From positions 79,820,142 through 79,884,141 of the forward strand of contig CM049306.1 in NCBI GenBank assembly GCA_026874595.1: a stretch of DNA of 64,000 nt. Reading direction: 5' to 3'. This stretch comes from Sipunculus nudus. Its lineage: Eukaryota; Annelida; Sipuncula; Golfingiida; Sipunculidae. Positions 827 to 39,355 of the stretch are shown here, piece after piece; within the stretch, counting starts at the first letter, position 1; each line of letters begins with the position of its first letter. A program made the translations under genes and the position numbers. Below the pieces are notes generated by a model. The model did not search any database, was not told the DNA's origin, and saw only the letters and a list, made by a program, of their open reading frames with translations.

Positions 827-851
827 TGTAACAAAAGAATATCAACTGGCA

Positions 852-10726: not shown

Positions 10727-10744
10727 ATATATATATATATATAT
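10727..10744. repeat. (AT)n microsatellite
   Basis: Nine AT units without interruption. Confidence 0.9.
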
Positions 10745-12537: not shown

Positions 12538-12658
12538 GTCAAAGAAAAGAGATTCTATGAAGAGTTATTCTTTCCTGAAGCCCAGGCATCTCGTGCTTGG
12601 CAGCAGTCAATGAATTCTGTTTTCAGTATGACATCCCAACAAGACAATCCATTCAACA
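12538..12658 (+). CDS. internal exon of unknown plus-strand gene
   Basis: A 121-bp segment between acceptor aatatcccatacag and donor AACA|GTAAGATT, open in one frame for 40 codons, phase 0 in and phase 1 out. The peptide begins VKEKRFYEELFFPEAQ, continues with AWQQSMNSVFSM and ends QQDNPFN. It is hydrophilic, with an NPF tripeptide near the end (an EH-domain ligand motif in other proteins, which may mean nothing here). Composition is exon-like. No flanking exon was identified, and it lies antisense to the LRR gene's transcription unit. I do not recognise the protein. A minus-strand frame is also partly open, so the strand is likely but not certain. Confidence 0.45.
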
Positions 12659-13837: not shown

Positions 13838-13918
13838 AAGTAAAAATTCATGTAGGGTAAGTCAAAGCTAAATGTTACTGGGTATGCTAGTACTTTCAAA
13901 AGGTAATGTTGAGCCCTG
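13838..13918 (+). repeat. dispersed repeat ending in gagccctga, copy 1
   Basis: Shares with 32268-32352 the segments aagtaaaa, atgtagggtaagt, gtactttcaaaagg and gccctgat in the same order. Probably the 3' part of an interspersed element. Confidence 0.6.
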
Positions 13919-14600
13919 ATCGTACCGTATTGAAGTGATACATATTATCCAGTGCTTCAGGCCACAGTATTTCACAGGACCTCATATTCCAACACACCTA
14001 TTAAATATTAATAAAGATTTATCTGATAATCTTTCTGACAGACTATGTCCTATAATACCTGGTATTTATCATATATCTTCTATAAGTGACTCCTAGATGT
14101 ATGATATAAGAAGAAACAAAACTTTAAATTCTTATGTTACCAGTTAACAGTCTTGAAGTAACAGTCTTAATGAGACCATTTTCACATTGTACATAACCTA
14201 GTTACAAAAAACATAATTCAGACCTGATTATACCCATGGAATCTGACTGTTCAATTGAATATCAAGACAATTTTAACTTGTAACAGTCTTACAAAAAAAG
14301 AGCAAAATGCACGAATGCAATACGCCAGATCTCCTTTTGAATACTAATTACAGTAGGACCACTTATTCCCCACAGTGCCATCTTTTGATAAGTAAAAACA
14401 CACATTCTTCATACAGGATAATTCATTTGTCTCTTCTTGTTTCCACTGCAATGAACTTAAGTAGGATACAATTAAACTGCCATTTTTATCAAACTGGGAG
14501 ATAAATTGTCAAAAGTTTGAAACTAGATGGTGCTGAAAAGAAAAAGTGGTATTACCATAAATAACTGCTTTCGTTTTGCAAGGTACTCCCATTTTTTTCT

Positions 14601-14660
14601 AAGCAACACACAATGCATATACAATCACATAAGCAACACACAATGCATACACAATCACAT
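14601..14660. repeat. 30-bp tandem duplication
   Basis: Two adjacent 30-bp copies beginning aagcaacacacaatgcata, differing at one base. Confidence 0.85.
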
Positions 14661-15048
14661 AAACTGTAGGACTAACTATAGAACACACAAGTTGGCATAT
14701 TGCCATAAAATTTAAAATATTAAAACACCTCTCAGTGGAACAATTTATAGCCATTTATTGTAACTGTTTGAGAAATAAGTTAAACATTCAGGCAGACTAC
14801 GGGACAAAAAAATTCCATATTTGGATTCAGACCAATTACAAAATTTAAATCAGCCCTTCCTTCCAGATGCACCACTTCTCAAAAGGTTTATTTGGAAATC
14901 CATCCAAAATTTTGTGGGTAACCATTAAAACTTCTGAGGTAAGCATCTATATACACAGACTAATGAACATGTGGACAGACAGAAGTTCAACATTTCTCAA
15001 AGTAAACTACTGTTTAATCTTAACGCATGTCGTTCTGAGGTTACTTAC

Positions 15049-15120
15049 AATTTCTGCAGCATGTGTCGTCCAGGGAAACTGTTGGCTTTCAGGTAGGTAA
15101 GAGAGTTGTACTTCAGGACT
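15049..15120 (-). CDS. LRR protein, 72-bp leucine-rich repeat exon
   Basis: Internal exon of exactly 72 bp coding one 24-residue leucine-rich repeat. Its acceptor reads ttactttcag and its donor GTAAGTAA, both strong. Read from the phase-2 end of the 39.1-kb exon it gives L-VLKYNSLTYLKANSF... ending MLQK and a split Leu/Phe codon, so it is phase 2 on both sides. Leu or hydrophobic residues fall at the LxxLxLxxNxLxxL positions, with Asn and Phe at the conserved places. This aligns position for position with the first LRR exon of glycoprotein-hormone receptors as I remember them. No other exon of this type was found by eye in 1-15 kb, so the next one is either masked or outside the window. Confidence 0.75.
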
Positions 15121-15266
15121 CTGAAAGTAAACAAAAACGTAAATTCATGTAAATTAATATTGCCACAATGTGTATATATCTTCCACTGTTATTCATTTTG
15201 CCTGAATACAAAAGTTTCAAAGTAAAACCACACAGCTTTTACAGGCTCAGTGTCTGTTAATCACTT

Positions 15267-15330
15267 GTTTTATATACTGTTTTGGTTCTGAGTGTTTATA
15301 AATACAATCCAAGAATGTTTATTTATTATA
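15267..15330. repeat. diverged copy of the 6.43-kb hairpin
   Basis: Aligns base for base with 6437-6498 with about a quarter of positions changed (ggttctgagtgtttataaat against ggttctgcgtgtttgtcaac). The stem is decayed. Confidence 0.45.
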
Positions 15331-16093
15331 ACAAGACTGTCGCTGAAGGAATGGTCTTGTGCATGCACAAAAACCTGCAATCAAGGGAGGAAGATGTATT
15401 TTTTCATGAATTTTTATATATGTTTTCTATCGCACCACTGATTGTCCCTGGAGGAAGTTTATTTCTCCTGTGTATAGGGGTTAGGAAATGGTTAAGTAAA
15501 ATCTTGGCAGATACTATTATATTTCTGTGAGAGAAGAGTGTTTTTTCACAGATACCTAATCTAACCGGTTTCTAGTTTTTTCCTCTGATGTTGGCTCATT
15601 TTTTATAAACTCCAATCTGTACCAGTTGATAAAATCATAAAGGTTCAAGTCTTGAAGGAGGAGTTACTGACTCAAGAAAGGTAATCACATAGCATTTACA
15701 AAAATTCTGTGACTATAGTCCTAAAAAAATAAAGAAATGGCTAAATTACAGACCAAAAATAACTCTTTCACACTGCTAATGCTGAAATGAAAAAAAAATT
15801 GTAACAGTTTCTACTTTAACTGAGAGATCCATTCTGACTTATTTTAAGGTAGATACACCAAACTTGTTGGAAATCTACACAAGAAGCAGTTTCCTAAAGC
15901 CATCAATTCCAAAACATTTTGGCACATAGCCAATCAAACCCCATGATAAATGTCCTACTTTGTACAAAAGTCACATAATAGACATGATGACTAGTATAGT
16001 TTATTTGTACAAAAGAACACACTGATTTCAAAGTAGACACAAGTAGCATATAACAACAGTATTGGAATGATCTGGATAATGCTTAATGTAATT

Positions 16094-16129
<36 letters not shown>

Positions 16130-16162
16130 GGTGTGTGTGAGGGTTTGTGTGTGTGTGTGTGT
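16094..16162. repeat. compound (GT)n-(GA)n-(GT)n microsatellite
   Basis: A GT run, then GA repeats, then two more GT blocks separated by aggg. Confidence 0.9.
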
Positions 16163-16599
16163 TAAAGAGGACTGGATCTAGGGGACATCAAGAACGTATA
16201 AGATGGTAATTAAGGAAAAAGTATGTTGAGAACAGCCATGTTGTTTCCACTTCACACTGATCAGTGTTTTAATTTGAAAAAAAGAACCACGATAGCACAA
16301 TAACGAAGTCATTAAGGCTTGGCAGAAACCAGGCAGTAATGATCCAATTGGCTGGCATTTCCTCCTCAAAACACACACAAGCCCAAGCAACAGACCGATA
16401 AACGGAACAAGTCCTAGGTTTGTCCGCATATTCCCCAAGATCAGCTCTAATTGGTCCACGAGATTGCCCCTAATAAAAGCAGAGATGAACTTAGCAAGGC
16501 TGGTAATGCTGGCAACAGAACAAGGATCAATAAATGCAGCACTGCAGCAGGCTCAGCAGACCCAGGACACCCAGCTCGGCCACTATCAAGCCATAAATC

Positions 16600-19500
16600 T
16601 AGTTTTTGTAGGAAATAGACAGAGGCCTTCCTACTTACAGTAGCACCCCATGTTAGTTTAATACCTTCTGCCCAATGATTTCATGAGTTATGAGGCCACC
16701 TTTGCCCAGAGAGCTGTGTTTTGTTGGCTCTATGATGGAAACTAATATGCCTCAATCTAACCGCATCCCGTGATATATGACGTTCTATTCAAATCCCTCC
16801 CTGGAATTTTTTGTCTTTTGCTTCGCCAAGAGCAGATAATGGAAATGAACAAAATTGGGAGTGAACTGCAATCCATAAAATACAAGACACTGTTAAAGTA
16901 GGAAACAGATATGAACAAAATATGACTGCCATTCCATCCATTAAATGCAGTTTAATTGTACACCAATTTACTAGGTGAATAACCATGTCTCTTGGGACCC
17001 CTTAGTTTTAGGATGTGTATTGTCCATTGAAAAGATAAAAATATTAGCTGACAATGTCTACATAAAGAATACAACAATCAAAGACTATCATAATATTTTC
17101 TAACAATAGAAGATCATACACTATAAATGGTTAATGAAATACTGGACATTCCCATATATTGAAACCCCCTAGAAAAGGTCTCTTCCCAAAGCCTAGGACC
17201 TCTTCACCCCTTCCCTTCTGGCAAGTACAGTTTTTAACACCATGTGCAACCTGATATCATGCACCCTTGTCCCTATATAATGCACCTCCCCCTATGAATG
17301 TTTTATTTTTTTTCTGTCAAATTCTCCATTGGTAGCAATCCAAAAATGTAATTAATTTCAATCATAAATCACTGTCTGTCATATAATCTTATACAAATGA
17401 AAGGCACAAATACAATATTCAAATATAACATTTTTGAGTGATTGATCTTGCACAACATCATTCTATGGTCATTTATTCAAGTAAGCAATCTGAGAAAAGT
17501 TGGGAATTAGGATCTGGGCGCTCAAGGGGGTAGCACTCTTAATGGAGTGAAAATATACTCTATAATCTTGATGAAATTATCTCTGAATAATACTGATTCT
17601 TGTGATCTTCATGTTAAACTAATAATCGAGAAATATTATATTAACCACTCTTTTCTATATGTACATTCTTCAATATCCTCATGCCACACAAGTATTCATA
17701 CATTAGTGAATCCATGACAGTGAATATGGTAATTATGACAGCATGTGAATATGAATTAGAAACAATATAAACCAAAGTGCATTTTTAATGCACTGCATAA
17801 ATAATGAGAGGAATATTTATGCACATGTCACAACTGGCATGAGAAATTTGTTGATACTGTAATAAAAACATGTTAGGTTTGTATATAAGAAGTGGACCAA
17901 GTGCCCATTCAAAAACAGATATAAGATAGTACACACTTTCTTTGGTGAGAAGTGAACCAAAATCCATACACTGAATTTAAGGAAGAAATTAATCTGTTGT
18001 TGCCATTATAATATGAGCTTTGTTTTCCAGACAAACTAAGAAACCAGCAAATTTCATTCACTCCATCCACCCATTAATTATTAAGCAACCTGTCTTTTGT
18101 TTGTTTTTTTGCCAAAATAGTTCAATCAAAGGTCAAGGTCATTGGCTGTCACAGTGAAGGTCATGGCCTATTTTGAAATATAGGCTTCTTCCTCTGACCA
18201 ATCTATAAACATACAAAATTTGAATAAAAAGAACTGGTACATAATTTTTAGTTATTTTACTTGCAAGGACTGTCTACAGTTCATCTTCAGACAGTTGTCA
18301 AGGTCAAGTCACTGATTGTAGTTTCAAAGAAATAAATGATCTAACTGTAAGAAACTTGAGAAAAACATAAGCTTAGATTGTATTAGTCTAATAATAGTAA
18401 ACAACACTACACATGTACACAACACATGATAAAAGTACAGCCTCAATCCTTTCTGAGCTTCACCCCACTCTGGCTGAACTCTGATAGCATCTAACTAAAC
18501 AACATGAAAAACATGCAAGGCTGTCGCAGATCTATCATGCTGACAGTGCCAATTAGGCATAATTTGTCACTCCCATGAGTAACTGAGAGCATGTCACTGG
18601 GGTGCATTTTAGAATTACTCACGTCCATTAACAGAAACTGCTACGCATTAACTGAAAGAAATTCTATTTTTCATCATAAGCCACGGTTTGCTTTGTAGAC
18701 TGCTCTAAAGCATAAGAATACTCAACAGAATACATGCTTGAAAGGAAATTAATTTTTTTTATATATTTATTTTTATGCTGATTCAGCAAAGCCTTATAAT
18801 CATAAGACAACTGAAGGGTAATTCTATGGAAATCTACTACAAAGCTCTCTGTTAAGGCCCATGTACTGTTACAGTAAAAGCAGCTGATCTTATTCAGACT
18901 GCCAGCTACAGTTCTTTGATATGAACTCTACACTGCTCTTGTGTAATAAACAATTCCACTAGGCCAATTTAAAAATGCTCTCAGCACAGGTATTTCATTT
19001 TTTTCCCAGCTGGATTCCATATACATAAATTAAGATTGTCTTAGTTTTTACTAACCTTACTGCATGAACTTTAAAACGTAATTCTCAAATGGATTTGTAT
19101 TGTTAACACAACCTGCCTTAATACTTAAAATCATCAAGAATTTTGATCAGAAAATGAATATGTCAATTTGAACAACTCTTTAACATCATTCATTAATGAT
19201 CATTATCAAATGATTCAGCAGAAGAGGCAAGGATTATTGTGTTCTTTTGGTTTTAAAGGACTGCACATGTAATTCCTAATACATATCCAAGGCCATAAGT
19301 TATGAAATTTGATATTTTGATATAATTAAATAGGATGGATAATTCTTCCGACTGCTGACTGAATCTTGCTTTGTCATTTTATAGTTAACTTGACCCTCAG
19401 AAATATGTGACTGACCAATTACTGATCTTCTAAGAAGATACCACTTTTGAAGAATTTGAGAACTGTTTCATGCACTGCTAAGCTAATGATCTAGAAGAAT

Positions 19501-21400
19501 GACGGACAGATACACACACAGAGGACAAAACATAGCTGCCACTTTGCAAAGCAGCCTCTGATTAAAAATATAAAAGTGATTTATTCCAAGTTTATTATTC
19601 CTTACTCTGCATCAAACAGATTATAAAGAAATATTTCAATTTTTTCTGCAAAAGCCATAAATAATGTGATACAATAACATAATTTTACAGGTCTTGTCAC
19701 AAGTGGTTAAAGTGATATTACAACATTACAGTCCTGACAGAGGCAATATTATACAATGTTAATGGATTTCTAAATAGTAGTTGTACTGAGTCAGAATGAT
19801 CATCAGCTGAGCCATAAATTGGCAAAAACTTTGGAAATCTCCTTTCTTCCTGATAAAACCTTGTTTGTTATGACATCCTGATACACTTAACATCCACTCT
19901 GACAACTACCAAATGATTTTGATGTTTTGGGTTTTTCTCCCTTGAAATCGTTTAAAACACTCACTGTCTGTTTAGAGGTAAAATGGATGTCTTTTATATT
20001 TATAAACATTATATCACAACTTGACCTGAAAGAATATAAGAAAACCTGGTTTCTCCGGACACAGATATCTGCAAAACTATCCAGATTGGGTAAAATCCTG
20101 CCATGTACGTGACTTTTCAGTGTACATTTGATACAATTCCAAGACCCCCTATCTGTTACATAAACTACTCAATCATGTTATTAAACAACAACTAACACCA
20201 ACTTACAATATACAGCTCACATAATCATCATATTTACCATTTACTGGCACCAGAACACTCATATTATCAACTATAACAAACAACAGTATTGGAGTCATAA
20301 TTTTAATGCAAACTGGCAGTGAACATGTAACGGAATCTGATTATGTTTTATTGACTCCAATGACTCATCTTCCAGCATAGCAGACATATCTAAACGTTAG
20401 TCAGATTACGGGATAGGCTGGAAGCTTGGTAGGAGTCAAAAACAATGTTGTGAAGAAATTAAACGAAGCTCGGCAAAACCTTCATGGTTACAAGCATAGG
20501 TAATGGTCGCTGAGAGATCTACCCCCACAGGCATGGTCTCCTGGACCTATGCAGACCTGGGCTCTACCTGTTGTCAGCTGTTGCTACTTGACACATAATT
20601 TGTTTGCTTGAATATAAACAAATCAATTGGCCAGGGGTCTACATAAGACTCGGCATAAATCTTGGGTAACTGAGATGAGTTAAGGTCACCTGGGGTCACG
20701 CTGGCTTGGAGAGTGATACCTGAAGGTGGTGTGGTAAAGGCATCTGTTTTCAATAGCAATGAAAACTTCTATATTTAAATCACTATATCTTATGAGAAGA
20801 GAGCATTCACACACAAATAAACTCACCTATAAATTAATTTTCACATGGGTCTTGAACATATTATAACCTGTGTCTGTCTGACTGATTTTTGCCTGTTCAT
20901 TGTTTGCTGGGGTTTACTGCAATACCATTATTAAGCCCATGAGCAGTTTTAATATCATTATTACCACTGTAATGTCATAATGTTTACCATAGAAACTAAC
21001 AAGTGCCATTGCCCTAATTACAAATTATAAAGTTATTGTCCCTTTAATGTATCAGACCTCTATATACAGAGCAGAAGTATCTAAAAAGTTATAGCTAGAT
21101 TTTGATGAGATTATTATTCTTGCATTGAAAGAGGTATATAGAGTGCCATCTGTTTCTATTTTAATTTTTACTACAGTTCTAACTGATCAAATGAATGGTA
21201 GTTCAAAAGAATATTGCTCCAAGGTAAGTGAATGGACCAGCCCTGAGTAAGGATCAAAGAGTAAAGTGTAAGGGCTGGACTTTTCCATCTGCTTCAGGTG
21301 CTGGTCAAACAGCAAGCCAGCCAGATGTGGGGCTCCTAGCTCTAACTGTAGGTCTCTGTAATCACTCCTGAATGTACTGGCTTGGACTGGCTTCTGTAGC
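16600..21400. other. intronic stretch, nothing identified
   Basis: AT-rich DNA with no convincing exon, RNA gene or repeat boundary. Short open frames here look like chance. Confidence 0.5.
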
Positions 21401-21899
21401 TGCAGGCACAGTCATGTTAACTGATTACAGCAGATCTGTGAGTGATTGTGGACAGCACTGGTATGGGGTAACCCTGTAGTTTTTGGCAGCCCAAGGTAAG
21501 GAGCTGGCCAGCACTCCAGAACAGACTCAACACTGGGAAAACTGTATATACACAACATGACAAAATGATGGCCGCAGTAGGGGTAACCAAACAGTCACCA
21601 CCTAATGAAGTGAAATCATGATACATTGTTAACACGTTCTCTCCTGAACTAGCCATGCCTCCTGCAGTGCTGGGCTGCTCTGTACTGTCCTCCTGATGTC
21701 TACATATGGTCTGGTTACACTCAAGTGAATACTGTAAGTGGGGGTTAACATGTTAATCAGCCTGAGCCAGTCCACCTGTTCCTGTCACTCAACACTGGCA
21801 CCTGCTGCTCACATCAATGATGAGTTACTGATCATTTATAAATACCGGAAACCCTCTCAGTATACGCTCCCGAGGCAGCGGAAATCTTGCGCTTCTAAA

Positions 21900-22350
21900 G
21901 AAGCAACCGATTTTCACGCTGCCAGCTTTGACCGTTTATGATATATTTAGACACCAGATGGCGGTTCGTTTTCCACTGAAATAAACGTGCTTATGATGTG
22001 ATAAGCAGCCAATCAGATGTCAATAAACAAACACTCGACAGGCATCCTAGCTCCGCCCATTGCTGCACTTCAAGCGCCGCTTATTGAGTTTCCGGTCGAA
22101 TTTAAATTGCTCCCACTGCATTCTCGCATCATCGACCGATTCGATTATGACATTATGACTGTGTTAGCGTAGCCATGTATCTGTTGTCTGCAGAACTGAA
22201 ACCAGCAAGCGAGGTGTGCACGCAGCCTTTGTTGTTACGTTTCGTTTGAATTACAGCTCACCGGCCGAGCATCCTATGTGCCCAAGGCCCTAAGCAAACC
22301 ACATCAGGGGCAATTCTCTCTGAGCCTGTGGCCTGTTCAGACGGTTATGC
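21900..22350. promoter_or_regulatory. CpG-rich island, candidate promoter
   Basis: Distinctly CpG-rich DNA inside the giant intron. It contains a CCAAT box (gccaatcaga, near 22008), a GC box (ctccgccc, near 22051), several CG dinucleotide clusters and a CTCF-like site at the left edge. In plus orientation, box spacing predicts a start near 22.1 kb. A 24-codon frame starting MYLLSAELKPASE follows at about 22174. A minus-strand donor-like sequence (GGCCG|GTGAGC) is also present. The transcript it serves is unknown; an internal promoter, enhancer or nested gene are all possible. Confidence 0.4.
21952..21964 (+). promoter_or_regulatory. CTCF-like motif
   Basis: CACCAGATGGCGG at the edge of the CpG-rich island, matching the CTCF core apart from its first base. 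Confidence 0.3.
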
Positions 22351-22598
22351 TGGGGGATGAGCTGTCACTCAAAAAGAAATTAATATGATTGGCTCTGTGT
22401 TTTCCTCGCTTGGCTTTGTCTTCCAGCACAAGGTCTCATCAGATTGGACAAAAATACAGTGCTCCCCTCTGGTATTGCAATTCAGGATACGAGGTCATAA
22501 CAAACAGCGCCTTACGATATAGGTAGTAGCCCTATAGGTAAAGCGCTGTGTAAAGAGCGTACTCTCAGTATAGCCATCTCTATATTCTGGCCAACTCC

Positions 22599-23119
22599 CC
22601 TTCTGAACACCTTTATATTATAGGCACCTTGTTCTGAAAACTTCTTTATTATAGGCACCTTCTGAACGCATCTATATTATAGGCACCCTCTTCTGAAAAC
22701 CTATTATATTGGCATCTTCTGAACACCTCTATTTTATGGTCACCTTATTCTGAACACTTCTACACTATGTGCACCTTAGCCTGAACAACTCTACATTTGG
22801 GCACCTTTTTCTGAAAACATCTATAATATATGCATCTTCTTCTGAAAACCTCAGTATTATAGGCATCTTTTTCTGAATACATCTAAATTATGGGCACCTT
22901 CTTCTGAACACCTATTAATTAAAGGCACCTTCTTCTGAACACCTTTATATTGAAGGCACCTTTTTCTGAAACCTCTATATTATAGGCATCTTCTGAAAAC
23001 CTCCATATTGTAGGCACCTTCTTCTGAAACCTCTATATTAAGGCATCTTCTGAAAACCTTTATATTGTAGGCACCTTCTTCTGAACACCCCTATATTATG
23101 GGCACCTTCTTCTGGACAC
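22599..23119. repeat. 31-bp minisatellite, about 17 copies
   Basis: Units start ctgaacacctctatattata and end ggcaccttctt. Many are full 31-mers; several are 26-mers missing the same few bases. It begins right after the CpG-rich island. Frames are not kept, so it is non-coding. Confidence 0.95.
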
Positions 23120-23309
23120 TTAGAACTCTAACATTGCCACTTCTGGCAGTCCTGTGAGAAGAAGACTTTTTTTTTTATAAAGGTAGGCCAATGTCCTCCT
23201 GGTGGCACTGTATACTGAATGAGAATGAAGGTAACCATATGGATTTCAGGTTTTGTATGCATGTAGCTAGGAAAACATGATCAGCGCGAACATGCATAAT
23301 ACACCGGTC

Positions 23310-23820
23310 ATGTATCTGGTAACCTCTGACCACATTAAATATGGGTGAATTTTGATGAGAAGGTTATTTCAGGTGAGAAATACTATTAAATTCTATTATC
23401 ATAAATATGTATAATGAGTTTCATGAAAATCCATAGGATTTTTGGTAAGTCACCAAGGTGTCTCCAAAGTGTTGTAACCTCTGACCTCATTAAATATGCA
23501 TGGATTTCGCTGGAAATAGACCTTAGGCGAGATATTTTATTGGTTAACATTTCTGATGAGTTTGATCAAAATCCTTCATAGTCTTCATATAGGTTATCGC
23601 AGCGACACCACAAAGTAGCCTAGTGACCTGTGACCTTATTAAATATGCATGGATGTTGCCCATAATCAAACTTGAGCGAGATAACCTGTTGGTAAATAGT
23701 TATGGTGAGTTTCATGAAAATCCATCAAATCCCTGGTAAGTTATCACGGAGACACTAAAATTTAACAGACAGACGTGGGTGGGTACACCACGTACTACTC
23801 CCGTCATATGAAGAGCGTAT
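23310..23820. repeat. approx. 152-bp repeat array with ACAGACAGACG end
   Basis: Three diverged units, each with gacctcattaaatatgc and gagtttcatgaaaatcc, starting near 23319, 23471 and 23622. The array ends in acagacagacgtggg. The layout matches abundant bivalve interspersed repeats known to me. Confidence 0.75.
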
Positions 23821-24879
23821 AAAAGCAGAAGTCATCAAAACATTAGAGCTAATCTCTGAGGACCAATAAAAATTTGGCATGATGCAACTCAGGCACCTAG
23901 GGTGAGGGGTCTACACTGAAGACCTTCTCTTTACCCAAAAACATTAAATATCGTAATCAGTCCAGTGTGCATGCATGTCTGTGAGGACGGGGGTGTCAGG
24001 GGTATAAATTCTAGGATGGGAGAGGAAGAAGGGGGTAATCTTGTAAAAGTTCATCCAAGTTTGCTGTAAAAAACTACTTATCTCCTCAGGTGAATCGCTT
24101 CCACTTTCTTATTTACAAGGCTGACAGTATATATAAACTTATTTATTTTTATATTTTTATAGAATAAACTATTTCCCTGATGCTGAAATCTAAAACCTAA
24201 TAAAACATATAGGAACATTCACTGAGATACAGCACAAAACAAGGCATACAAATGATAAAATCTTCTTTTTGCAAATATACTAATACATACCGGGTTTTAA
24301 CTGATATGATATTATTCCCATTTGGGATATCATGTCTGTGTGAGAAACATAATACACCTGGTACCAACACACCATCAGGGACAACAGGGAACAGTTGTAC
24401 AGTTGTATATATTCTATGACAATACAAATGAACATGACACTGCAGCTCACTTTATCCAGGGTCATAACCCCTCAGGAATATATATCACACATCAAAGCCC
24501 CAAACCAGCAGATCTTACATAACAAATCAGTATTATATCATACATCAAACAGACAGCCTATCATGTATCACAGACCCCCCAGTATCCCTACAGACCTATT
24601 CTTCATGTTTCCTATAGAATGAAAAACTTGTGTCAGCGAGAATGCTGCCAACATAGATTTTTCTCTAATTTCATCAACACTTCTTCTCTCTAATAGCAAA
24701 ACTATCTGAATATTAACATCCAGTTGTGTCACATCCAAATATTGAATATATTTTATATAAAATCTTATGAGGTTTTTTACATCAGAGCCAATCAGATGTT
24801 CCAATATTGCATGTACACAGAAAGTGACCGAATGCAACTGAGATCAGCTTAAATCAATGGCTAGACCCATCATCTGTAA

Positions 24880-25345
24880 TTGTCAACTGGTAATATCCTT
24901 ATAGCCTTACACCTTTGTTACATTCAGAATTAGCCAGTTTTGGCTAGAATGCTTATAACTCTGTCATTATTTATGCGGAAGGGTCTAGTTTTTAAACAGC
25001 TTTCAGAGAAACAATTACAAATGGTGTCAAATTTTGTTACATTTTGCGTCACACCAGATTTAGCAAGTTTTGCTATAATGTTTGAAACTCAGTCAATTTT
25101 TATGCTAGGGAGATCCAGTGTGTTTTTTTTATCTAGATTTTCTTTGTGATGTCTGCAGGCACAGACTTCAAACTTGGTCATTTTATTATGCATACAACAC
25201 ATAAGTGCACTCTATTTTCCTTATGTGTTACTGTGACCACAAAGGGGGTCCCTGGTGAGTGTATGGCATTACTACATTTTGCCTACAGACAGATGGACAC
25301 ACAGACAGACAAACAGATGGAGCTGATCACTATATCTCTCTTCTG
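24880..25345. repeat. interspersed repeat with cagacagat end
   Basis: Two loosely similar sub-units (ttagccagttttggctagaa and ttagcaagttttgctataat) are followed by acagacagatggacacacag. It resembles the same general class as the 23.3-kb array. Boundaries are approximate. Confidence 0.5.
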
Positions 25346-25548
25346 CTAAGGCAGAGGATAAACAAGACAGCTGTAGCTGCATTCTATGGTTATATAGCTA
25401 GGGATATGTCTTACTGCATAACTTACTGACCAATAAGAAATGGTACCCATCTCCTTCTACTAGAACGATAAATTTAACAGGTGTAGAAGAAACTACACCT
25501 GGCAAGATCCAACCAAGGCAGGGGATCTCGTCAACTATATGAATCATA

Positions 25549-25922
25549 CCCCTTTCACACCAGAAATGCAAACCAGTTTCAAACTGTTTTAAATGCGTTT
25601 TTTAAACCATTTTGGCCAAAAGGTTTTGGATTGAGCTCAGGAGGGGGTTTCAAACCGTTCTGAATGCGAATCATTTTATCCACTTTGCTTGAGTATCGTT
25701 TGAATGCTCAATTCGCATTCAATATGGTTTACACCTACTTTTCAAGCAGCATCAGGTCACAGTGCAAGCACGAATGCTTGTGTCAGCACACTGTGACATT
25801 GTTCCACATGTGAAATGTACACCCCATGTATTGGCGCTAGATGCAATGTGAACGCGCAACAAACCGATTTGTCAATCCGTTTTGTCTAAATTGTTTTCAA
25901 AACGTTTTGTATGTGAAAGGGG
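25549..25922. mobile_element. MITE with TA target duplication
   Basis: The terminal inverted repeats CCCCTTTCACA and TGTGAAAGGGG are flanked on both sides by TA, as expected for Tc1/mariner-type insertion. Internal parts are also self-complementary, with repeated aaacNgtttNaaa blocks. 374 bp with no coding capacity. Confidence 0.75.
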
Positions 25923-25999
25923 TATCTTTGTAGTTAATTAACATTTGTCAACTATCAAGAACTGCCACTTGCGGTGATATCTGATGGAAGAATTTAGCA

Positions 26000-28100: not shown

Positions 28101-28115
28101 TTGTTTGATGGACGA

Positions 28116-28837
28116 AGCTCACATTCCATACATATATGCGCATGTGTAACATGTATGCATATACAGTATGTGCACATACTGCATAGTGGTCCTACGATTC
28201 GATGAAAGTTGCCGACATAATCGCTGTTTAAGGGCAGGTGACATCAATCAATTTCAAATAATCAGAATTTTTTTTTATTTCTGAGCTTCCAATTGTAGGG
28301 GCACAATCATGCCCGCCCCTTCCCTATTCTTCATACAGAAGCTTACATGGCTAACAAAACATGTTTCACATGTAAATTTGACAAACCATTGCAATTTTTT
28401 ATGGCGAATACTGCAGTCAATGTAAATCACATGTCAACATGAATGAGTTAGAATACTCTGCATCAAGCTGAATCATTTTTGAGCAAGGAAGAAAGTGTCT
28501 TCAAAACTTTTACAGGTGTGGGGGCTGGTAAGTGTGTCAACCCCCACATTCTAATAAAAATCATGCTACTAGCTGTGTGGAGTACACAGTTGATGGAACA
28601 GCCACATGGGGACTGGCTCTCGTTGGTCGTTGTGGTTCATATGCAGCAATATCAGGAATATAGAATAGAGCTGGATGTGTATAGAAAAGTCATCTGCCAG
28701 AGGAAAACCTTATCACAGACTTCTAAGTTTGGAACTTCCCCATCTGTTACCATGTCAATTGCTACCTTGAGCAATCAAAACATCCTGCATAAACATATGT
28801 AGATACACATACATACTGCATATGCATATGTGGAATG
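28116..28837. mobile_element. possible approx. 720-bp inverted-repeat element
   Basis: The left end reads gctcacattccatacatata and the right end, on the other strand, gggctcattccacatatgca. Both ends continue into runs of atgcatatac. The interior contains a GC-richer block near 28.6 kb. Ends are imperfect and no target duplication was found. Confidence 0.4.
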
Positions 28838-29299
28838 AGCCCATGAGAATATGTGTGTGATTCTTAGCTTTATATGTAAAGCATACGTACTGCATACACA
28901 TATTATATGCAATGCTACATTTATATATTTATGGTCGCTTTGCTACCCAGAGCTGGGAGGGACTAAACTGTGAGTTAACTACTGTAACAAAACATATACG
29001 AGGATATATCCGGATAATATGACCTGAGGAACACCAGCCAGTAATTCACAGATTCTCAACAGCACAGGGCTGACTGCCAGCCCTTGCTACAAGCAAACCC
29101 TCCAGTTTCATTGAGACCATCTGGCCAGCCATGGCTGCTGGTTAGAGACTGGTGCAGGGATCAGGAAACAGGCCAGCAAGTCAGGCATTACTAATGCACA
29201 GCATAGGTTTACCTGAACCGGCCTGTGTTTCCAGATATCTTGTTTAATACACACAGCCCCAATGTGTTTGTTTACTTGCTTTATATTCTCCAGCCACAG

Positions 29300-30900
29300 T
29301 CAAACAGTGTACACATAAAATCTAGGTTTTACAACACCTGGTTCTGCATGGAGGTTTTGTTGAAAATAACATACTTGATTTCCTGATTTATTTAAAAGGG
29401 TGGAACTTCCTCTGGTAAAGCAATAAATGACATAAAGCTATGAAAACTACAGAAGACTGTCTTATATATTAAATGTATGTGGTTAACCAAAGGAAATGAT
29501 TAATCCTCAACCTCAGATTCTTCTTAAAATATTTTACCTTAGTTTTTATGTATGATGAAAAACAAAGTCCTGCTTCATTATAAAACAGCTACATGTAATG
29601 AGTCTTTTTCAAAGTATTATTATTTAATAAAGGTGTAACAATGTATTGAACTTGAAGAATAGATGCACTGTATTAATTGCAAGCCCTTGATTTAACTGTA
29701 ATAGATTATATAATCTGAATTGATTATTTTGATTATTATTTTTTGTATGTACCATCTTGAAGTCCTTTGTGAGCTCTCAAATTTGACGAAGTAGTTCATA
29801 TTGTGCCAGCTCTTTATCGTGTACGTGCCCTAAATCTACCGTAACTCCCATATAAACATTGATGACAGCAACAAATAGACGGAGAGCTACAGTTTTCTTT
29901 TGTTTGCTCATATATTTACTATAATCAATATTTCACCACCTACTGTCCACCTGTTTTTTGTAGATGATTTACTAAAAGGTTTATATTTTTCAATATTTTC
30001 CAAGTAAACAACATATGGAAGTGACAACCTAATATGGCAGTTAAGAATTTTACAATAAATCCCCCGTTTATGTTTCACAACATTTTTGTCTCTTTATCAT
30101 GATATGGCAGATATGGTGTATCCCTCCATAAGTAGCCATCTTTGTTTTAGCTGGTTATATTTTTTAGAGTGTTTACATGAGGTCATCCAATCAGCTGCTG
30201 TCAGTTGAGGCTGTTTTTGCATGTGACCAATGACCCTGACCGCCATAAGTGGGTCTGATATGTTGTAAAATGTAGACTGATTCCTCATATTTTCAGAAAA
30301 TTCTGTTACTCAAAAATGGCATAAGGTAGGAATTTAGTTAACTAGTTGAAAATTAGGTTCTGTAATCCTCTCCTCTACACTATAACTGTTTCCCTTGAAA
30401 TGTACCTAATCAAAATTTTCATAGCAAAAAACAGGTGGACATGAGGGGATGAAACGGACTATAACATCCATTTTATTTTAAATTTACTGCATAAGTAAGA
30501 ATTGAATCTAGAATTGAATCAAAGGTAAAGAATTGTTAACTAAATTGATTTTAAGGGACCTCAAAATTCACAGGCCTATAATATTTAATATAAACTAGAA
30601 AGCACTCAATTACCACAAAAAGACCTCCACCAATATGCTGGCTCAACCAACTCAAAAATATGACCATGATCAAATACTGGAATGTGGTACCTGAGCACAG
30701 GAATATAAAAATATTGGAATGGATCACTCAATATTATAATGGTTTTATCTGAAGTGTAACTGATATAATACTACAAATATTTCAACCCAGATATTTCTCT
30801 CCTGAGTAATACATTAGTGAGAATTCATATTCAAAAATGAAACCTGTGGTTAGCAGTTTTGGTGATTTTCTGTCTATCCAGTGCCAACATTGTGTTGCAC
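29300..30900. other. intronic stretch, nothing identified
   Basis: AT-rich, short chance frames only. The GC-richer block just before it (29.0-29.2 kb) is non-repetitive and could be regulatory, without further support. Confidence 0.4.
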
Positions 30901-30982
30901 TATTTGTTGTGAATTATTATCAATATTAGAGGTAAACCCATGATTTTGACATGCAACATCTGGATTTTAGTGTGTATGTAAA

Positions 30983-31249
30983 ATGGCAGCCCTGGCATTT
31001 CGAGAAACTGGGAGAAATCAACCCATCAAGATTCTGAAAGGTTGTTTGGATATGACACAAAAGTACTCTGAGGAAAGCGTCCATGTGCAAGTCTGTGGAA
31101 AGTTCAAGAAAACAGTAGTAGGACAACTAGAATTTGCCTCCTACTTGCCCGGCTGGACAAGTGGGTCCAACATATACTTTTACCCAAGGCATGAACTAGA
31201 ATATCAGCAAAAGCTGACAAAAGCCCTCAGCCAAAAGAACAGTGTTTAG
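30983..31249 (+). CDS. 88-codon open frame, hypothetical
   Basis: Complete frame with a good start context (aaaATGG), an in-frame TAG upstream and a TAG stop. Starts MAALAFRETGRNQPIKILKG and is hydrophilic with balanced composition. The segment acttgcccggctggacaagt resembles other 'aagtgcccggcaagt' repeats in the window (32.3 kb), so it may belong to an interspersed repeat. No family recognised. Confidence 0.2.
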   Translation: MAALAFRETGRNQPIKILKGCLDMTQKYSEESVHVQVCGKFKKTVVGQLEFASYLPGWTSGSNIYFYPRHELEYQQKLTKALSQKNSV

Positions 31250-31371
31250 AGGTGGTAACAGTAACAAGTACTAAATATCTGTTCTCACATGGATGTATAT
31301 CTGTACATGCCTCAGTTATAAATTTAAAATGGAGAGGTATGTACCATGATTCATAACAATCCACCAAATGC

Positions 31372-32225
31372 TTCCTGAAAAATAAGCTTCTAAGTTTTAT
31401 TCTATTATAAGCTCTGTGACCTTGAAAAGTAGGTCAAGGTCACCCATCTTCGAACATGAATGAGATTTTTGTCGATATACATCTTCACCAAAGAAATAAA
31501 ATTCCTATTGTGAATCCTTTTAGAGATATCCCGCTCACAAGGCCAAAGTTGAAAAATCCAAGAAAAAATTCAATAAAAAATCAGAAATTGCAGGTGGTGC
31601 CCCCAAACTTGTGCAGCAGTTACAGACCATCAGTCCCTATGATCATAGTAAGTATTGTGAAAATCCATCCAATTGTTCCTGAGAAATAAGCTTCTACATG
31701 TTTTTTCTATAATCAGCTCTAAAACGTAGAAAAATAGGTCAAGGTCACCCATCTTCGAACTTGACCGAGATTTTGTCAATATACATCTTCACCGAAAAAT
31801 AAAATTCTTACGGTGAATCCTTTTCGAGATATCCCGCTCACAAGCCCAAAGTTGAAAAATCCAATAAAAATTCATTAAAAATCAGAACTTGTAGGTGGCG
31901 CCACCAAACTTGTATAGCAGGTACAGACTATCAGTCCCAATAATCATAGTAAGTTTTGTGAAAATCCACCGAATGGTTCCTGAGTAATAAGCATCTAAGT
32001 GTTTTTCTATAATCAGCTGTAAAATGTAGAAAAATAGGTCAAGGTCACCCATCTTCGAACTTGACCGAGATTTTGTCGATATACATCTTTACCGAGGAAA
32101 TAAAATTCTGACGGTGAATCCTTTTCAAGATATCCCGCTCACAAGGTAAAAGTTAACGGACGCCGGACGGACGGACGGACAGCTTGGGTGACGACAATAG
32201 CCCATCAGCCTAAGGGCTGAGGGCT
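31372..32225. repeat. approx. 303-bp tandem array with ACGG terminus
   Basis: Nearly three units, each with aggtcaaggtcacccatctt and gagatatcccgctcacaagg, starting near 31372, 31677 and 31979. The array ends in ggacgccggacggacggacg then cagcttgggtgacg. The identifiable 3' signature and unit structure fit an interspersed molluscan repeat. Confidence 0.85.
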
Positions 32226-32267
32226 AAAAAGGATCTTCCTGTTCTTGTATACAACCAATAATATTTG

Positions 32268-32352
32268 TAGGGCAAGTAAAATTTTATGTAGGGCAAGTAA
32301 AAGCTAGGTTACTTGCCGGGCAAGTACTTTCAAAAGTTAATGCAAAGCCCTG
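32268..32352 (+). repeat. dispersed repeat ending in agccctga, copy 2
   Basis: Contains gggcaagtaaaa twice, then acttgccgggcaagtacttt and caaagccctgag. Diverged counterpart at 13838-13918. Confidence 0.6.
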
Positions 32353-32599
32353 AGTTTGGTTGCAAGGGGACAAGAGCCTGCAAAGTTAAGATGGCAATAA
32401 CAATTTTTTACTACACCCACATCCTAAAAAATATAGTAGGATTGCTTGTCACAAACCTAAAGAACTCTTTCTTATACAGGCAAATCAACTCCCTCAGGGT
32501 GAAGGCATTAATTAGTTTAATTAGGCAAAATAAAAATTTCACAGCTACAAATACATACTTGCACCAAAACACACCACTTGATTTACAAAAGGGCCTGTG

Positions 32600-34370
32600 A
32601 GATCAATAAACAAGAGTTCCTGTGAGACGCATAAACAAAGGCATTCTACATGTGAGATAAAAAATAAGATGTCCTGTGAGACCAATACACAAAGCTGGCA
32701 TGTGAGACCAATAAATCAGCCGGTCCTGTGAGATCAACAGAAAAACTATTCCACATGAGACTGCTCAGGAAGAATGGATCCAATGAAATAAGTAATTATT
32801 GAATAAAAGCTGAGATTAAGCTAGGGAGATTAATAAACAAAAACTGATGCACATTTAATGATTACACTGTACTTTATGAGACAATATGGACCGCTATAAA
32901 ATTATTCAACTGGGTTTCATTATTGTATTTTATATTCTTAAGGTAATTAGGTGCTGCAAACTGATTATAACTGTCTGGATGAACTGTTGGATAAACAGAC
33001 AAAAATATAAATGCTTTTAATTTGAGGTTTGTAATCATATCATGTTTTATTCAAGCACAAGTGGCAAATCTCTATGGAGCAAACTATGAACAAAACTGTG
33101 GTGGCAATTAATTAATTATATTGATGACTGGTCTTTATTTGATATTTCATTAAAATGGGCTGCATTCTCATGAAACAGATGACCACAAAGGATTATGTAT
33201 GCACTGAAAAGAACTTAAACAATCATATTCTCTGGGAAGAATTTTTTTTTATTCTGTCAGAAACACAAAAGACCACACACAAATGAGCAAAACTGTGTAA
33301 AAAAGATAATGTATGTTGGAATTAAATTGAAATATATGCGTTTTCTTTATTTGAATATGACAAAGAAGTTATAAGAATCAATAATCAATCATTTCTAACT
33401 TTTTCTTTTAATCATCAAACATGGTTGAAAATCTAATTTGCATTTCTGACTTCCTAATTAGACAGCTTTACCAAAAATATTAAATTTCTATTAATATATC
33501 AATAAAATTTGATTTAATTCATTATAAATATGCTTCAATCATAATCAAATAATCTGAATAAAAGACAAACCATTCTGAAATAAAAATAATCTTACATTTA
33601 CAACAACAAAAAGAGAGAAAAAATCTTTCATACATTAATAATGTATTCTCTGGAGTGGGGCACACTCAGCTATAGTGTGTTAAAGTGCATTTTACCAGAT
33701 CTGCAACTTAAATGCATTAGACAATCACACACAGGTGACAGAGAGATCACATATGCACTGATTTATACACTAATTTGATGTCACACCTTGGCCTTTCTAA
33801 GCCTGAACAGTGGTGGTACTGAGTTATTGCTGACAAATCAGACACTGAACGGAGCTAGAAATTCATCAAGTGCAGTAATTATGTTTACACTGTTGAAGTG
33901 TTCCCATTATTAAACCTAATGCCTGTCGTGGGCTTTGATGTTGTTTTAGAACTTGTAGGCAATAAAATCCATGTCAGACAACAGGCTGCACTCCCTTTTC
34001 AACATTCCTTACAGGGATATGTACGGTACTTAAAATAACATAAATGAGGTAACTTATGGTAGTTCAGCCATTCACTTATTTTGAACAGCCTTTAACAGAA
34101 AATAGGTTCAATTCAATTTCTAAATTTAACTTTATCCTGTAAACATCAAATACTGCCAACAAATAAATTATTTACAAATTTTCTGTTGTTCTATGACCTG
34201 ACATTAGTTGTATTTTTATTAAGGTCTAAATAGCCAGAACTTCCTGACCAATGAGCAGTCCAATCGCATATTCCACCCCACATACATGGACCTAATATCA
34301 TATAAAAGAGTATCAATATGTAACTGTTGCAAGCATCACCTTAGTGCCTGCTTATCTGAAGCACCTGCTT
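32600..34370. other. intronic stretch, nothing identified
   Basis: AT-rich. A weak repetition of 'ctgtgagacCaataaacaa' (32597-32760, about five loose copies) is the only structure seen. Confidence 0.5.
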
Positions 34371-34379
34371 AACCTTACC

Positions 34380-34545
34380 TATGCCATGGAGGTTATGTAT
34401 TCACCAATGTTTGTTTGTTAGCAGAGTTTTGCAAAAACTATGAACTGATTTTAAAGAACATTTGTAGAGGGTAGAACATTGACAAGGGAATGTTTCTCTA
34501 AATTCTCGTGCAGATCTAGTAGTTCCTGAATATTTTGCCTTTATA
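34380..34545 (+). repeat. old interspersed repeat fragment
   Basis: Contains ccatggaggttatgtattca, caatgtttgtttgttagcag and gagttttgcaaaaactatga. This string order is widespread in invertebrate genomes, from memory. A more degraded relative lies at about 40345-40465. Confidence 0.5.
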
Positions 34546-34820
34546 ACAGGGGCATATATATGCACTCTTCTGGGTTCCACTCTAGTCGCATTATGTTAGA
34601 CTAAAGACAGATAATAAATAACAATATGCACTAATTTGGTAAAGAAATGCTCAATAATCGATGCACTGAATTGCAACCCCTCAAACTGTAAATGTAATGG
34701 AATCATAATCACCGAATCAATTTGTGTCAATTATTATTTTTATGCATGCGTGCATCAGTGAGCTCTTAACTTTGATGGAGCACACTGTGATGATGAAACT
34801 ATTTATTGTGTATGTTAGGG

Positions 34821-35053
34821 ACGAGATTAAAATCCAAGCAGATTTCAAACTCGCCTAGATGAGATTGTGAATGTGATCTAGCCTAGGCGAGATTGCAATT
34901 GTTATCTTGCCTAGATGGATTTTAAACTCACCTAGACGAGATCACAATCACAATCTCACCTAGGCGAGATTAAAATCCATCATGGAACATGCCAGGATTA
35001 AATCTTGGCTAGGCAAATTTAAAACCCACCTGGATTTCAATCTCGTGTCTGAC
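34821..35053. mobile_element. palindromic repeat built on CTAGGCGAG
   Basis: The ends acgagattaaaatccaagca and, on the other strand, acgagattgaaatccaggtg form terminal inverted repeats. Inside, five variants of cgcctaggcgagat alternate in both orientations, separated by gattgtgaatgtgatc-like spacers, so the whole block can fold into a large hairpin. Non-coding. Confidence 0.7.
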
Positions 35054-37500
35054 ATATATATATGTATGTGGTCAAGGTATAGTTTCAACCCTCACCGGTA
35101 AATCAATCCTTTCACATAGAAAAAAAATGGCAGAGATATCCCCAGGGCAAGTTACATTTTTCCTTTACTTGAGGTGAAAGAAAGTCTGAATTCACTAGAT
35201 TAGTAAGACTTGACACAACCACTGAATCAAAGGTAATGACTGAATTTAATGAATCGATTCAAATCTCCCCATAATTCATGAGCCGAATAAACAGAGATAT
35301 TCAATTTTCAAATATCAAATCAAAATGAACATGCACAGCTGAGGAATCTACCATAAAATCTTGTTTAAAAAAATGTGAAATGCTTGAAAACCATCTCATT
35401 CAAGGTTCCCTAATAGTTTTCTCATCTAGAATGACTCTCTATCAATACTTGTATTCAACTGATATTCTATAAATCAGTCATTTAACAGAAAGCCTACCTA
35501 ATACAGTCTTTAACAAATAAATATTCTTTGACCTTCTCTTCACACTGAAGGACATGAAAAGACCTTTGGGTGTGTTTAAGCTGACTAAATGTGTGATTCC
35601 TCTCAATTTAAAGCCCACAATGGGGTTAATTTGTGGTGAGATATATATCTTACAGGGAAGAGCTAGTTGACAGCTAGAGTGGCTGGAAGCACTTCCTCTG
35701 GTCTTATTAATGACTTAAGTACACCCATTTCAAGCCTCCCATCCTCAAGCCAGGTTTACCAAGCCCTCCAATCAAAATAAAAGGCCTTGAAACATCTTTA
35801 AATCATCACCTGCTTACAGGGAAACCTCACCGTTTTTTATATATACCACTCAGACTCCCTCTCAGAACCAACAGCTTCGTACTCAATGTCTCTACCCATT
35901 TTGGTTTGGAACTTCACATTATGACAGATATGGAACCCCTGCTGGGAGCAGCTCGTCCTTTTAAGGAAAAGATTTCTAATTCCTAACCATGCTTTGGGGA
36001 TATTTTACATATGCAGCAAATGACACTTGGAACTGTGACAATTAACTGGAAAGAATAATCTGGTTTTTAATTATAATCACGGCTGTCATATTTTACTGTT
36101 TCTTGACAGTTACAACCCTGCTGGCATAATGCTCACAGAATAGCTTCCCCGTAAGAGTCTCCATTTTCAAGGTGACATTTAACACATCCTCTCACCATTG
36201 CAACATCATTTAATTTCATTAGATATTACAGATATCTTAAGCTTCCAGGTATATTTAATACTATGTTTAATTCTCCCATTATAACTGACCTTAATTTTGG
36301 TAAGCCTTTGTTTCCAAATTTAAATTTCAATGTTCTGATTTAATACTACTATTTTAGACAAGAGACATATGAAAAGAAGGTGGTGTCAGATAAAACTGCA
36401 AATTAGATGGCTGACTACTGCTGTATGTAAAATCAGTTGCCATCCCTAACTGAATTCTATGAACCTGTAATAAACTGTAAAAAATAAATATCAAACAAAC
36501 CAAACTGAAACTGCCAACAAAATAAGGCATAAAGCCCCCCCCCTTTCATTAATGTTTGTGTGAAAAAAAATCTAATAAATTTATATCAATTTATAAATAA
36601 AATTTCCCATTTTTTTCAAACATACATTATAAATATCATACAGAGAATATAATACAAAATATAGAAGAGAATAGTAAATGTATTGGATTTGGCAGCCATG
36701 CCATTGTGACAGCTTGTCTGAATGTCCTGTCATTACCACAAAGAGATATGGAAAACAAATATCAGGCTCCGTGCATGTGTGCCAGAGCCAGCTATAAAAG
36801 GTGTCATATAATTCCTTGATCGGAGCTTTGTTTGAATTTCCAACCACTTGGTCCCCTCTTGACACAGAGAGCTAGGTTACCTTTAAGAGCAAGTAACCCT
36901 TTATGCTCCGTCCAAGACACACATAACCTCCACTACTCCAAACATATCATACTCTCCACACAGTGTTCATGACCAGATGAAAAATGTCCCCATGAACATG
37001 CCTTCATGTATGCCTGGAGAGGGATAACAGAATTAGATCTAAGCTCTTATTTACAAACCTGATATAACTTTACAACCCTGGTAAAAAACTATTTCCTAAA
37101 TGAGGTAACAAATATATGTGTTTACATTCTGATCTGTCAAGAAGGCATACATACAATCCTGCCTTTCAGATGATGATGTAAAACAGACTGTCAAGCAAGA
37201 ATCCCTGGAGCCAACACCCAGTGTTAGTATATATCCTATTCATGTGTACATAAATATATATCTTAAATTCAATACTAAATCAACCCTAGGTTTACAGCTT
37301 TTTGACATCAGATATATGCCATAATGCTGTCTTCATATCATATATTATGTTTTTTTTCTGGCCTCAATATATTTTATAACTTGCAAGTACCTAAGTGCAG
37401 CATATTCTACATTTCACTTAAAAGTAATTATATGGTCTTTATTGTTATCTTAAGTAACAGATCACCTAAAGAACCCATTTGCCCCTAAAATGAACATGTA

Positions 37501-38513
37501 TGTCAAGGCCCAGATCCAGATCTGGACCAATCAGCAATTGGTCTAGGCCAAATACCGATCAGGTTTTAGGCCGGACCAAATCCTGCTCAGAATCTGGTCT
37601 GGACGTCCAGACCATGCAGATGTCCATCAGGATTTGGTCCAGCCTTAACCAGGGCTGAAACAGGTACAAAATTTTGGACTCGAGTACCCGACAGGCATTA
37701 CCCGACTCGGACTCGAGTACTCGTTACCATGGCAACGCTGTAAAGATAAAACGGACATTTCTTTACGGAGGCAAAATATGCATAAATTTGACTTCGTGAC
37801 GGCTTAACTTTATCCCAACGAAGGAATAGATATATGTCATTACAAGACCTCTGTTAATTTGACTAGCTTATGTTTAGAGCCCTATATATATATGCCAGGC
37901 TACGATAATGAATAAATAGGCCTACAGACTGCCCGTAAATTTGCAGATAGGCCCATATGAAGTTTTCAGTCCCCCATTTTCAAATATGGATATTCTTAAC
38001 TTGTATCAACTCATGAACAGCTTACATTCAAGTTGAAAATCCTGATTTCATGAAAACAAACAATTTATAACTTATCTTATCAACATTTTCAACTATGTAT
38101 GTGCATATATTCATATTTTTAGTAAAAATATAAATATATAAATTATAAAATAAAAATTTTTTACACAACTTCAGTTTATTATTTTTTCATGTCTTAACCT
38201 TATGGATTATAACACCAAAAGCCTGCTCTAGACTGCCATGGAATCTCAATCAGGATCTAGTCAAGACCAGATCCTGATCAGGGTTTAGGACAGACTGAAT
38301 CCCAATTTGGTCTAGACAGATCCCAGATTGGTCCACCCTGGATACCTATTGAGATTTGGTCTGGACCGATTCCTGATTGAGGATCTGGTGAGGATCTGGT
38401 CCGGACAAGGGCTTGACCAGATCCTGAAAAGGGTTTAGGCCAGACAAAATCCTGATCAGGATCTGGTCTCGACGAATCACTGGTTTGTACAGATCGGGAT
38501 CTGGGCCTTGACA
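37501..38513. mobile_element. 1-kb inverted-repeat element with TGTA duplication
   Basis: TGTCAAGGCCCAGATC at the left is matched by GATCTGGGCCTTGACA at the right, flanked by TGTA on both sides (37497-37500 and 38514-38517). Both arms (about 170 and 290 bp) are packed with variants of gatctggtctggacc in both orientations. The 560-bp centre is AT-rich and also holds actcgagtacccgac repeats. No transposase is visible; a non-autonomous DNA transposon is the simplest reading. Confidence 0.8.
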
Positions 38514-39098
38514 TGTACATACACAAAAACCAATTTTAAAAGCAGTTTTTTTGTAGAAGTCTAGATATTATGACTTTTAAATTTATTAGGTTCTCCATCT
38601 TTTTTAAATAATAACTTTTGATAATGAAACTATCTTTGAATTATTCAACCAAAAATTTGTTTATAAAATGTAATATTTTTTATTCATATCTTTTATGAGC
38701 ATCCCCTTATACATGAGGCATTAGTAGGGTTAGCACAGGTACAAAGCTGGAGCAGCAGTTTGTATATAAAATATTACTTCATTTAATTTTAGATGTATAA
38801 TAAAATATATATAATAATATGCACAGAATAATAATGTACAAGACAATGTACCTCAATGATATATCTGTATTACTTTACTAATGAAATCTGTGTGTGATTA
38901 AAAAAAGCTCATACCAAAGAAATGATTTTTCAAATGATAGATTGTAGTGTCCTTTTAAAATTAGATTATATCAGTGTTTCTATTTAAGTTTAGTCTTCTA
39001 AGCTGTTACTTTTAAAATGGAATTTAAATGTATACAAGTGTATGTATGGCCCTATATTCTTCAATATGCTAATAATTATGCAATATTATTATACTCAC

Positions 39099-39355
39099 AG
39101 CTGCAAGGTGTTCTCAGGTAGAGAGTCAACCCTTAAATCCGCGAGAGACGTCAGTTTTGGTGAACCACTGCACTCCACACGGACACCTGTAATGCCTTTT
39201 TTCCCCTTTGATCCCCCAGGTATTCCTTTTTTCCCCTCTCTTGAGGTCACAGTATCACATTTACAAATTTTTGGGCATCCGTCTTGACCTCTGACCTCAC
39301 TGGATAAACATAGCAACAGGAGAACAGAAGCAACGGTTGAATGTATCCTCATCAT
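39099..39355 (-). CDS. LRR protein, signal peptide + LRRNT exon
   Basis: First coding exon of a secreted or membrane leucine-rich-repeat protein. Residues 1-23 form a signal peptide: basic start MMRIH, then a hydrophobic core ending SSEVRG. The mature part opens with an LRRNT cap, with Cys27, Cys31, Cys33 and Cys62 in the C-x3-C-x-C...C pattern, and ends in LPENTLQL, the usual lead-in to the first LRR. A G-K-K-G-rich linker (residues 41-57) separates the third and fourth cysteines, which are normally much closer together. The exon ends after two bases of a Leu codon at a strong donor (GTGAGT), i.e. phase 2. It joins in frame to the LRR exon at 15.05 kb. Two adjacent ATGs are possible starts; the first is used here. 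In family terms the cap plus phase-2 LRR exon suggests an LGR/glycoprotein-hormone-receptor-like protein, but slit-like or other LRR proteins are not excluded. Confidence 0.8.

Follow-up and report, generated by a model that had tools for sequence, protein, structure and literature searches.

A leucine-rich-repeat gene split by long introns in Sipunculus nudus very probably encodes an ADGRA-family adhesion receptor

The window analyzed here is a 64-kb stretch of the Sipunculus nudus genome, C1:79820142-79884141 (C1 denotes CM049306.1). Its minus strand carries two predicted coding exons that are very probably the first two of a gene for an adhesion G-protein-coupled receptor (GPCR) of the ADGRA family. 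The exon numbers E1 to E17 used below come from a hand-built gene model (Table 1). The product of exon 1 opens with a signal-peptide-like segment; next comes an LRRNT-like module of cysteines (CKC...VECSG), in which the linker is long and basic. The exon ends in phase 2 at the donor CAGCT|GTGAGTA. Exon 2, the first leucine-rich repeat (LRR), has a pyrimidine-rich acceptor (GTTTACTTTCAG) and the donor GTAAGTA. The two exons join in frame, with a Leu codon formed at the junction and the LRR register continuing across it. A first-pass annotation had described this pair, with good splice sites, phase 2 ends and an exactly 72-bp second exon, and had proposed a single minus-strand LRR receptor gene with a 24-kb intron; all these claims are supported by the sequence.

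Exon 2 is exceptional within the window. On the minus strand, 145 of the 623 AG-GT intervals of 69, 72 or 75 bp are open, and exon 2 alone combines 72 bp with strong sites. Its LRR pattern (6 of 7 positions) is the best of the 145 as well. The plus strand contains 520 such intervals, 134 of them open, and the single 72-bp candidate with strong sites there has an LRR score of 1. When the joined 110 amino acids of E1 and E2 were compared with the whole genome (whole-genome searches covered 1.43 Gb in 153 contigs), the two matches at E<=0.001, among 4 candidates scored, were E1 and E2 themselves. The profile search suggested in the first-pass annotation was weak for this joined frame alone (Pfam LRR_8, E 0.1, below the cut-off; in the PDB, three general LRR proteins, best E 0.083) and strong for the full model (LRR_8, 3.1e-23). 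The nature of the pair, as far as sequence evidence goes, is settled by the remainder of the gene to the left of the window and not by the 110 residues alone.

To examine that remainder, 200 kb left of the window were added, giving 264 kb in all, on both strands. The queries, human ADGRA3, part of ADGRA2 and LGR5, were unverified reference sequences. In tblastn at E<1 the ADGRA3 and ADGRA2 queries produced 15 rows, every one from the minus strand and following the order of the protein; these span 35 kb and match parts of 10 of the 17 exons in the model, between E3 and E17, among them E7 (E 2.6e-33), which encodes an immunoglobulin (Ig) domain and a HormR-like segment. For exons unmatched by tblastn, manual placement relied on splice sites, reading phase and alignment, and the model boundaries may be slightly off, above all in E8-E12. 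The fit of the query letters to previously unseen genomic exons suggests that the queries represent real homologs. The resulting model has 17 coding exons from C1:79859496 to 79769435 (90 kb), comprising 4,713 bp and 1,570 amino acids, with no internal stop and with GT-AG boundaries in 16 of 16 introns. Introns 1 and 2 measure 23,978 and 29,443 bp and the remaining 14 measure 357-8,424 bp; E3, which encodes the second LRR, is 14.4 kb beyond the window's left end.

Table 1. Coding exons of the gene model and the two introns that reach into the window
Feature	Window position	Strand	C1 position	Remarks
E1	39355-39099	-	79859496-79859240	ATG start, signal-peptide-like, phase 2 end
Intron 1	15121..39098	-		23,978 bp
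E2, first LRR	15120-15049	-	79835261-79835190	72 bp, phase 2/2
Intron 2, in-window part	1..15048	-		29,443 bp whole intron
E3, LRR		-	79805746-79805675	72 bp, phase 2/2; tblastn
E4, LRR		-	79803230-79803159	72 bp, phase 2/2
E5, LRR		-	79798504-79798433	72 bp, phase 2/2
E6, LRRCT-like		-	79798075-79797915	tblastn
E7, Ig-HormR		-	79789490-79788925	tblastn
E8		-	79786970-79786812	placed by hand
E9, GAIN piece		-	79786103-79786009	tblastn
E10, GAIN piece		-	79785248-79785011	tblastn
E11, GAIN piece		-	79784650-79784455	tblastn
E12		-	79782795-79782691	placed by hand
E13, GPS		-	79781796-79781693	tblastn
E14		-	79778379-79778234	placed by hand
E15, 7TM (seven-transmembrane)		-	79773134-79772949	tblastn
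E16, 7TM		-	79772492-79772313	tblastn
E17, 7TM		-	79771466-79769435	tblastn

The first-pass annotation had also anticipated further 72-bp phase-2 exons and a 7TM part to the left of the window. Both were found: E3-E5 extend the series begun by E2, each of the four exons encoding one LRR, and the 7TM part is of the secretin/adhesion type. Across the 264 kb, 1,158 open phase-2 candidates of 69, 72 or 75 bp were scored (545 plus, 613 minus); an LRR score of 6 was reached by 10 of them (3 plus, 7 minus), and the four that also have strong sites are precisely E2-E5, in order. As a control, 60 random 64-kb windows from a second-order Markov model were scanned on both strands; they averaged 0.65 candidates with LRR score 6 each, and none of the 60 contained one that combined this score with strong sites and 72 bp; the cut-offs of both scans were set after E2-E5 had been seen.

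The predicted protein comprises four LRRs, an LRRCT-like exon, an Ig domain, a HormR-like segment, a GPS, a 7TM part and the C-terminal residues ETSV. Beside LRR_8, Pfam recognizes 7tm_2 (4.9e-19) and GPS (1.2e-11), and the Ig domain passes narrowly, as Ig_3 (6.1e-7, 30.3 bits for a cut-off of 30) and I-set (3e-5, 24.4 bits for a cut-off of 23.7). In tblastn the ADGRA3 query finds the LRRCT-like exon (HLVCDCNLKW...) at 3.3e-10, the HormR-like segment aligns well with the ADGRA2 and ADGRA3 queries, and the body of the GAIN domain is seen solely through tblastn matches with the ADGRA3 query. Adhesion GPCRs account for 27 of the 32 PDB matches of the GPS-7TM part up to E 10, the best being ADGRL3 with 64.4 bits; the ADGRA3 query scores 219.6 bits against the same part, with the program and database size of the PDB search. 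In blastp, the ADGRA3 query shows 33% identity over query residues 6-1069 (1,064 residues, 577 bits); for the ADGRA2 part the identity is 32% over residues 1-529, at 305 bits. Of the sequences tried, ADGRA (GPR124/125) is the nearest, and the gene's probable relatives are vertebrate ADGRA2 (GPR124) and ADGRA3 (GPR125) as well as fly Remoulade.

Several observations weigh against this assignment. The HRM profile remains below its cut-off (0.019, 15.8 bits for a cut-off of 26.2), the 15 Pfam matches with E of at most 1 include no LRRCT and no GAIN model, and no ADGRA chain is present among the PDB matches listed, which for one search are the best 60 of 300. E1, E2, E4, E5, E8, E12 and E14 are unmatched by the ADGRA2 and ADGRA3 queries in tblastn at E<1. 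The gene model itself is a prediction from genomic sequence, and the unverified queries carry part of the argument.

The first-pass annotation considered an LGR-type (class A) leucine-rich-repeat GPCR plausible, from exon phase and length. The signal peptide, the LRRNT-like start and the 72-bp phase-2 LRR exons would all suit such a receptor, and the LRRs of the LGR5 query match those of the model with up to 57 bits. However, several LRR families have 72-bp phase-2 exons of this kind, which hence are no specific pointer to LGR. The model has only four LRRs, and a 7tm_2-type 7TM part, a GPS, an Ig domain and the LRRCT-like exon stand in one open model, and 7tm_1 is absent from the 15 Pfam matches up to E 1. 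The LGR5 query matches significantly in the LRRs only: its aligned segments in the 7TM region have E 3.1 and 5.2, tblastn with it at E<1 yields nothing in the 264 kb, and phmmer returns no row for it against the GPS-7TM part. On 7TM type, GPS and Ig we reject the LGR identity and regard it as extremely improbable.

A different question is whether E1 and E2 belong to the receptor at all. They could form a separate secreted or single-pass LRR protein, the ADGRA exons having another first exon; the 29.4-kb link between exons 2 and 3 is predicted from sequence, and the ADGRA2 and ADGRA3 queries miss both E1 and E2 in tblastn at E<1. Yet phase and LRR register continue exactly, the scan of the 264 kb passed no further strong-site 72-bp exon resembling an LRR, and E1 and E2 do align with the ADGRA2 and ADGRA3 queries, exon 2 beginning at the start of LRR1 and no residue missing at the E1-E2 join. 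This arrangement is very unlikely. A chance reading frame flanked by chance splice-like sites, with no gene present, could appeal to the modest Pfam E-value (0.1) of the 110 residues. The random-window control (0 of 60) and the four-exon series led us to reject chance origin, the remaining receptor gene follows in order, and the probability of this reading is virtually nil. E1 and E2 are best regarded as the front of an ADGRA-family gene.

A whole-genome search with the Ig-HormR exon (9 candidates scored) returned its own locus at 2.5e-127 and six other places at E 0.0125 or worse. Because of these weak values, there appears to be no near ADGRA copy at the sensitivity of the search, a single-locus statement made from this exon alone.

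The GPS of the model reads ...GVYW...TQGC...RCNHM|TNFAVLQ and aligns to the GPS of ADGRG6, G1 and L3. According to PMC13062082, a cleavage-competent GAIN domain combines H-X-S/T, an aromatic residue stacked on the His, a Gly-Cys motif and flexible flaps; the aromatic is Phe in 21 human GAIN domains and Tyr in ADGRE3, and H-X-S/T is insufficient alone, given that ADGRB2 with HLS is hardly cleaved. The triad H-M-T and the Gly-Cys motif are both present in the model. A Tyr of the model aligns with a Phe of ADGRG6, G1 and L3 which, from its spacing to the Cys, is presumably the published His-stacking position. The sequence hints that the receptor might cleave itself at HM|T, a site that appears unusual next to those of its vertebrate relatives. 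Weighing against the overall reading are the Met at -1 and the Tyr in place of Phe at the aligned aromatic position. The model has 2 of the usual 4 GPS cysteines, and the missing pair is also absent from the ADGRA3 query. For ADGRA3 itself, self-cleavage has been suggested by one study and is still to be proven, as stated in a 2025 paper (PMC12059339).

The C-terminal ETSV is of the PDZ-binding motif type. Because the model unites H-X-T, Gly-Cys, an aromatic residue at the presumed His-stacking place and a PDZ tail, and because vertebrate ADGRA3 is without the His and the fly receptor without the PDZ tail and with a GPS judged inactive, we tentatively suggest, at somewhat less than an even chance, that the early animal ADGRA receptor was self-cleaving and PDZ-anchored. 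The combination of H-X-T and PDZ tail as an ancestral state would be drawn from three lineages only. The consulted sections of PMC8584163 (vertebrate adhesion GPCR evolution) and PMC12716839 (choanoflagellate GPCRs) make no statement on the GPS of invertebrate ADGRA, and a narrow search found no open-access paper on adhesion GPCR autoproteolysis in oyster or on GPR125 in Crassostrea, where publication elsewhere is possible.

The most likely mode of action of the receptor follows from its family and motifs. The LRR-Ig ectodomain would bind partners at the cell surface, the GAIN domain would cut between Met and Thr, leaving TNFAVLQ to act on the 7TM part as its tethered agonist, and the ETSV tail would dock on PDZ scaffolds such as Dlg. 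Docking of this type might serve polarity or Wnt-linked signalling: vertebrate ADGRA2 acts with Reck in Wnt7 signalling (PMC5200908), and ADGRA3, which binds Dlg1 through its ETTV tail, acts together with Dishevelled in planar cell polarity (PMC12059339).

The analysis corrects the receptor assignment from LGR to ADGRA and provides a full gene model with a series of 72-bp LRR exons. Self-cleavage in ADGRA being unsettled, a member with an H-X-T site offers a direct test case for the first state of the family. If ancestral self-cleavage is true, the disputed cleavage of vertebrate ADGRA3 would reflect a later change and tethered-agonist signalling would be the older mode. Introns of 24 and 29 kb on either side of a 72-bp exon may also cause automatic annotation to miss the front of the gene.

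The window contains several further features. An acceptor-like sequence, TTTGCTTGCAG (window 39459-39469, minus strand), is located some 100 bp upstream of the start codon, and a noncoding 5' exon may lie still further upstream. In intron 1, close to its 5' end, an inverted repeat with 100-nt arms, 78% complementary and 815 nt apart (window 37500-37599 and 38415-38514), is possibly a non-autonomous DNA transposon. The same intron contains a tandem array of a 301-bp unit (2.6 copies, 88% matches, with GGTCAAGGTCACC-like words; window 31358-32145) and, in its most G+C-rich stretch, a minisatellite of a 31-bp unit repeated 17.4 times (CTTCTGAACACCTCTATATTATAGGCACCTT; window 22600-23119). In intron 2, two head-to-tail copies of a 163-bp unit (window 11420-11751) probably represent a young duplication because they are 98% alike. 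The longest stop-to-stop open reading frame (ORF) of the window (6280-6855, plus strand, 192 amino acids) matches no Pfam family at E 0.1. The idea of a gene nested within intron 1 was rejected, there being no Pfam match above cut-off in 26 of the 34 stop-to-stop ORFs of at least 90 amino acids in the window, a scan that omitted exon 1 and 7 ORFs over simple repeats and that shorter nested-gene exons would escape. The window contains no tRNA detectable by ARAGORN with bacterial settings and no Rfam match.

Among known systems, LGR4/5/6 and the glycoprotein-hormone receptors share with the present gene an LRR ectodomain, a 7TM part and 72-bp phase-2 LRR exons. LGR receptors, however, have a class A 7TM part, no GPS/GAIN, no Ig domain and more LRRs, and the model is the opposite on each of these counts. 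Vertebrate ADGRA3 and ADGRA2 have the same domain order, LRR-LRRCT-Ig-HormR-GPS-7TM, the HormR part of the model being HormR-like, and the ADGRA3 query adds the 33% identity and the shared absence of the two GPS cysteines. Human ADGRA comprises three genes, in contrast to the single locus that the Ig-HormR exon revealed here. The GPS of ADGRA2 reads HLG, as opposed to HM|T in the present gene. According to PMC12059339, most vertebrate ADGRA3 orthologs have SL|S/G at this site, the C-terminal PDZ ligand is ETTV where the model has ETSV, and the main human transcript has 19 exons, compared with 17 coding exons here. Drosophila Remoulade (CG15744) is likewise an ADGRA-family receptor with an LRR, Ig and hormone-binding ectodomain (PMC2571103, PMC13197933). 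The older of these papers found no GPS domain in Remoulade (PMC2571103), whereas the other gives its GPS as HRT, judged not self-cleavable, and describes the protein as lacking a C-terminal PDZ motif (PMC13197933), unlike the HM|T and ETSV of the present model. The fly gene also has few introns, with boundaries not conserved with vertebrates (PMC2571103), in contrast to the 17 coding exons of the Sipunculus gene.

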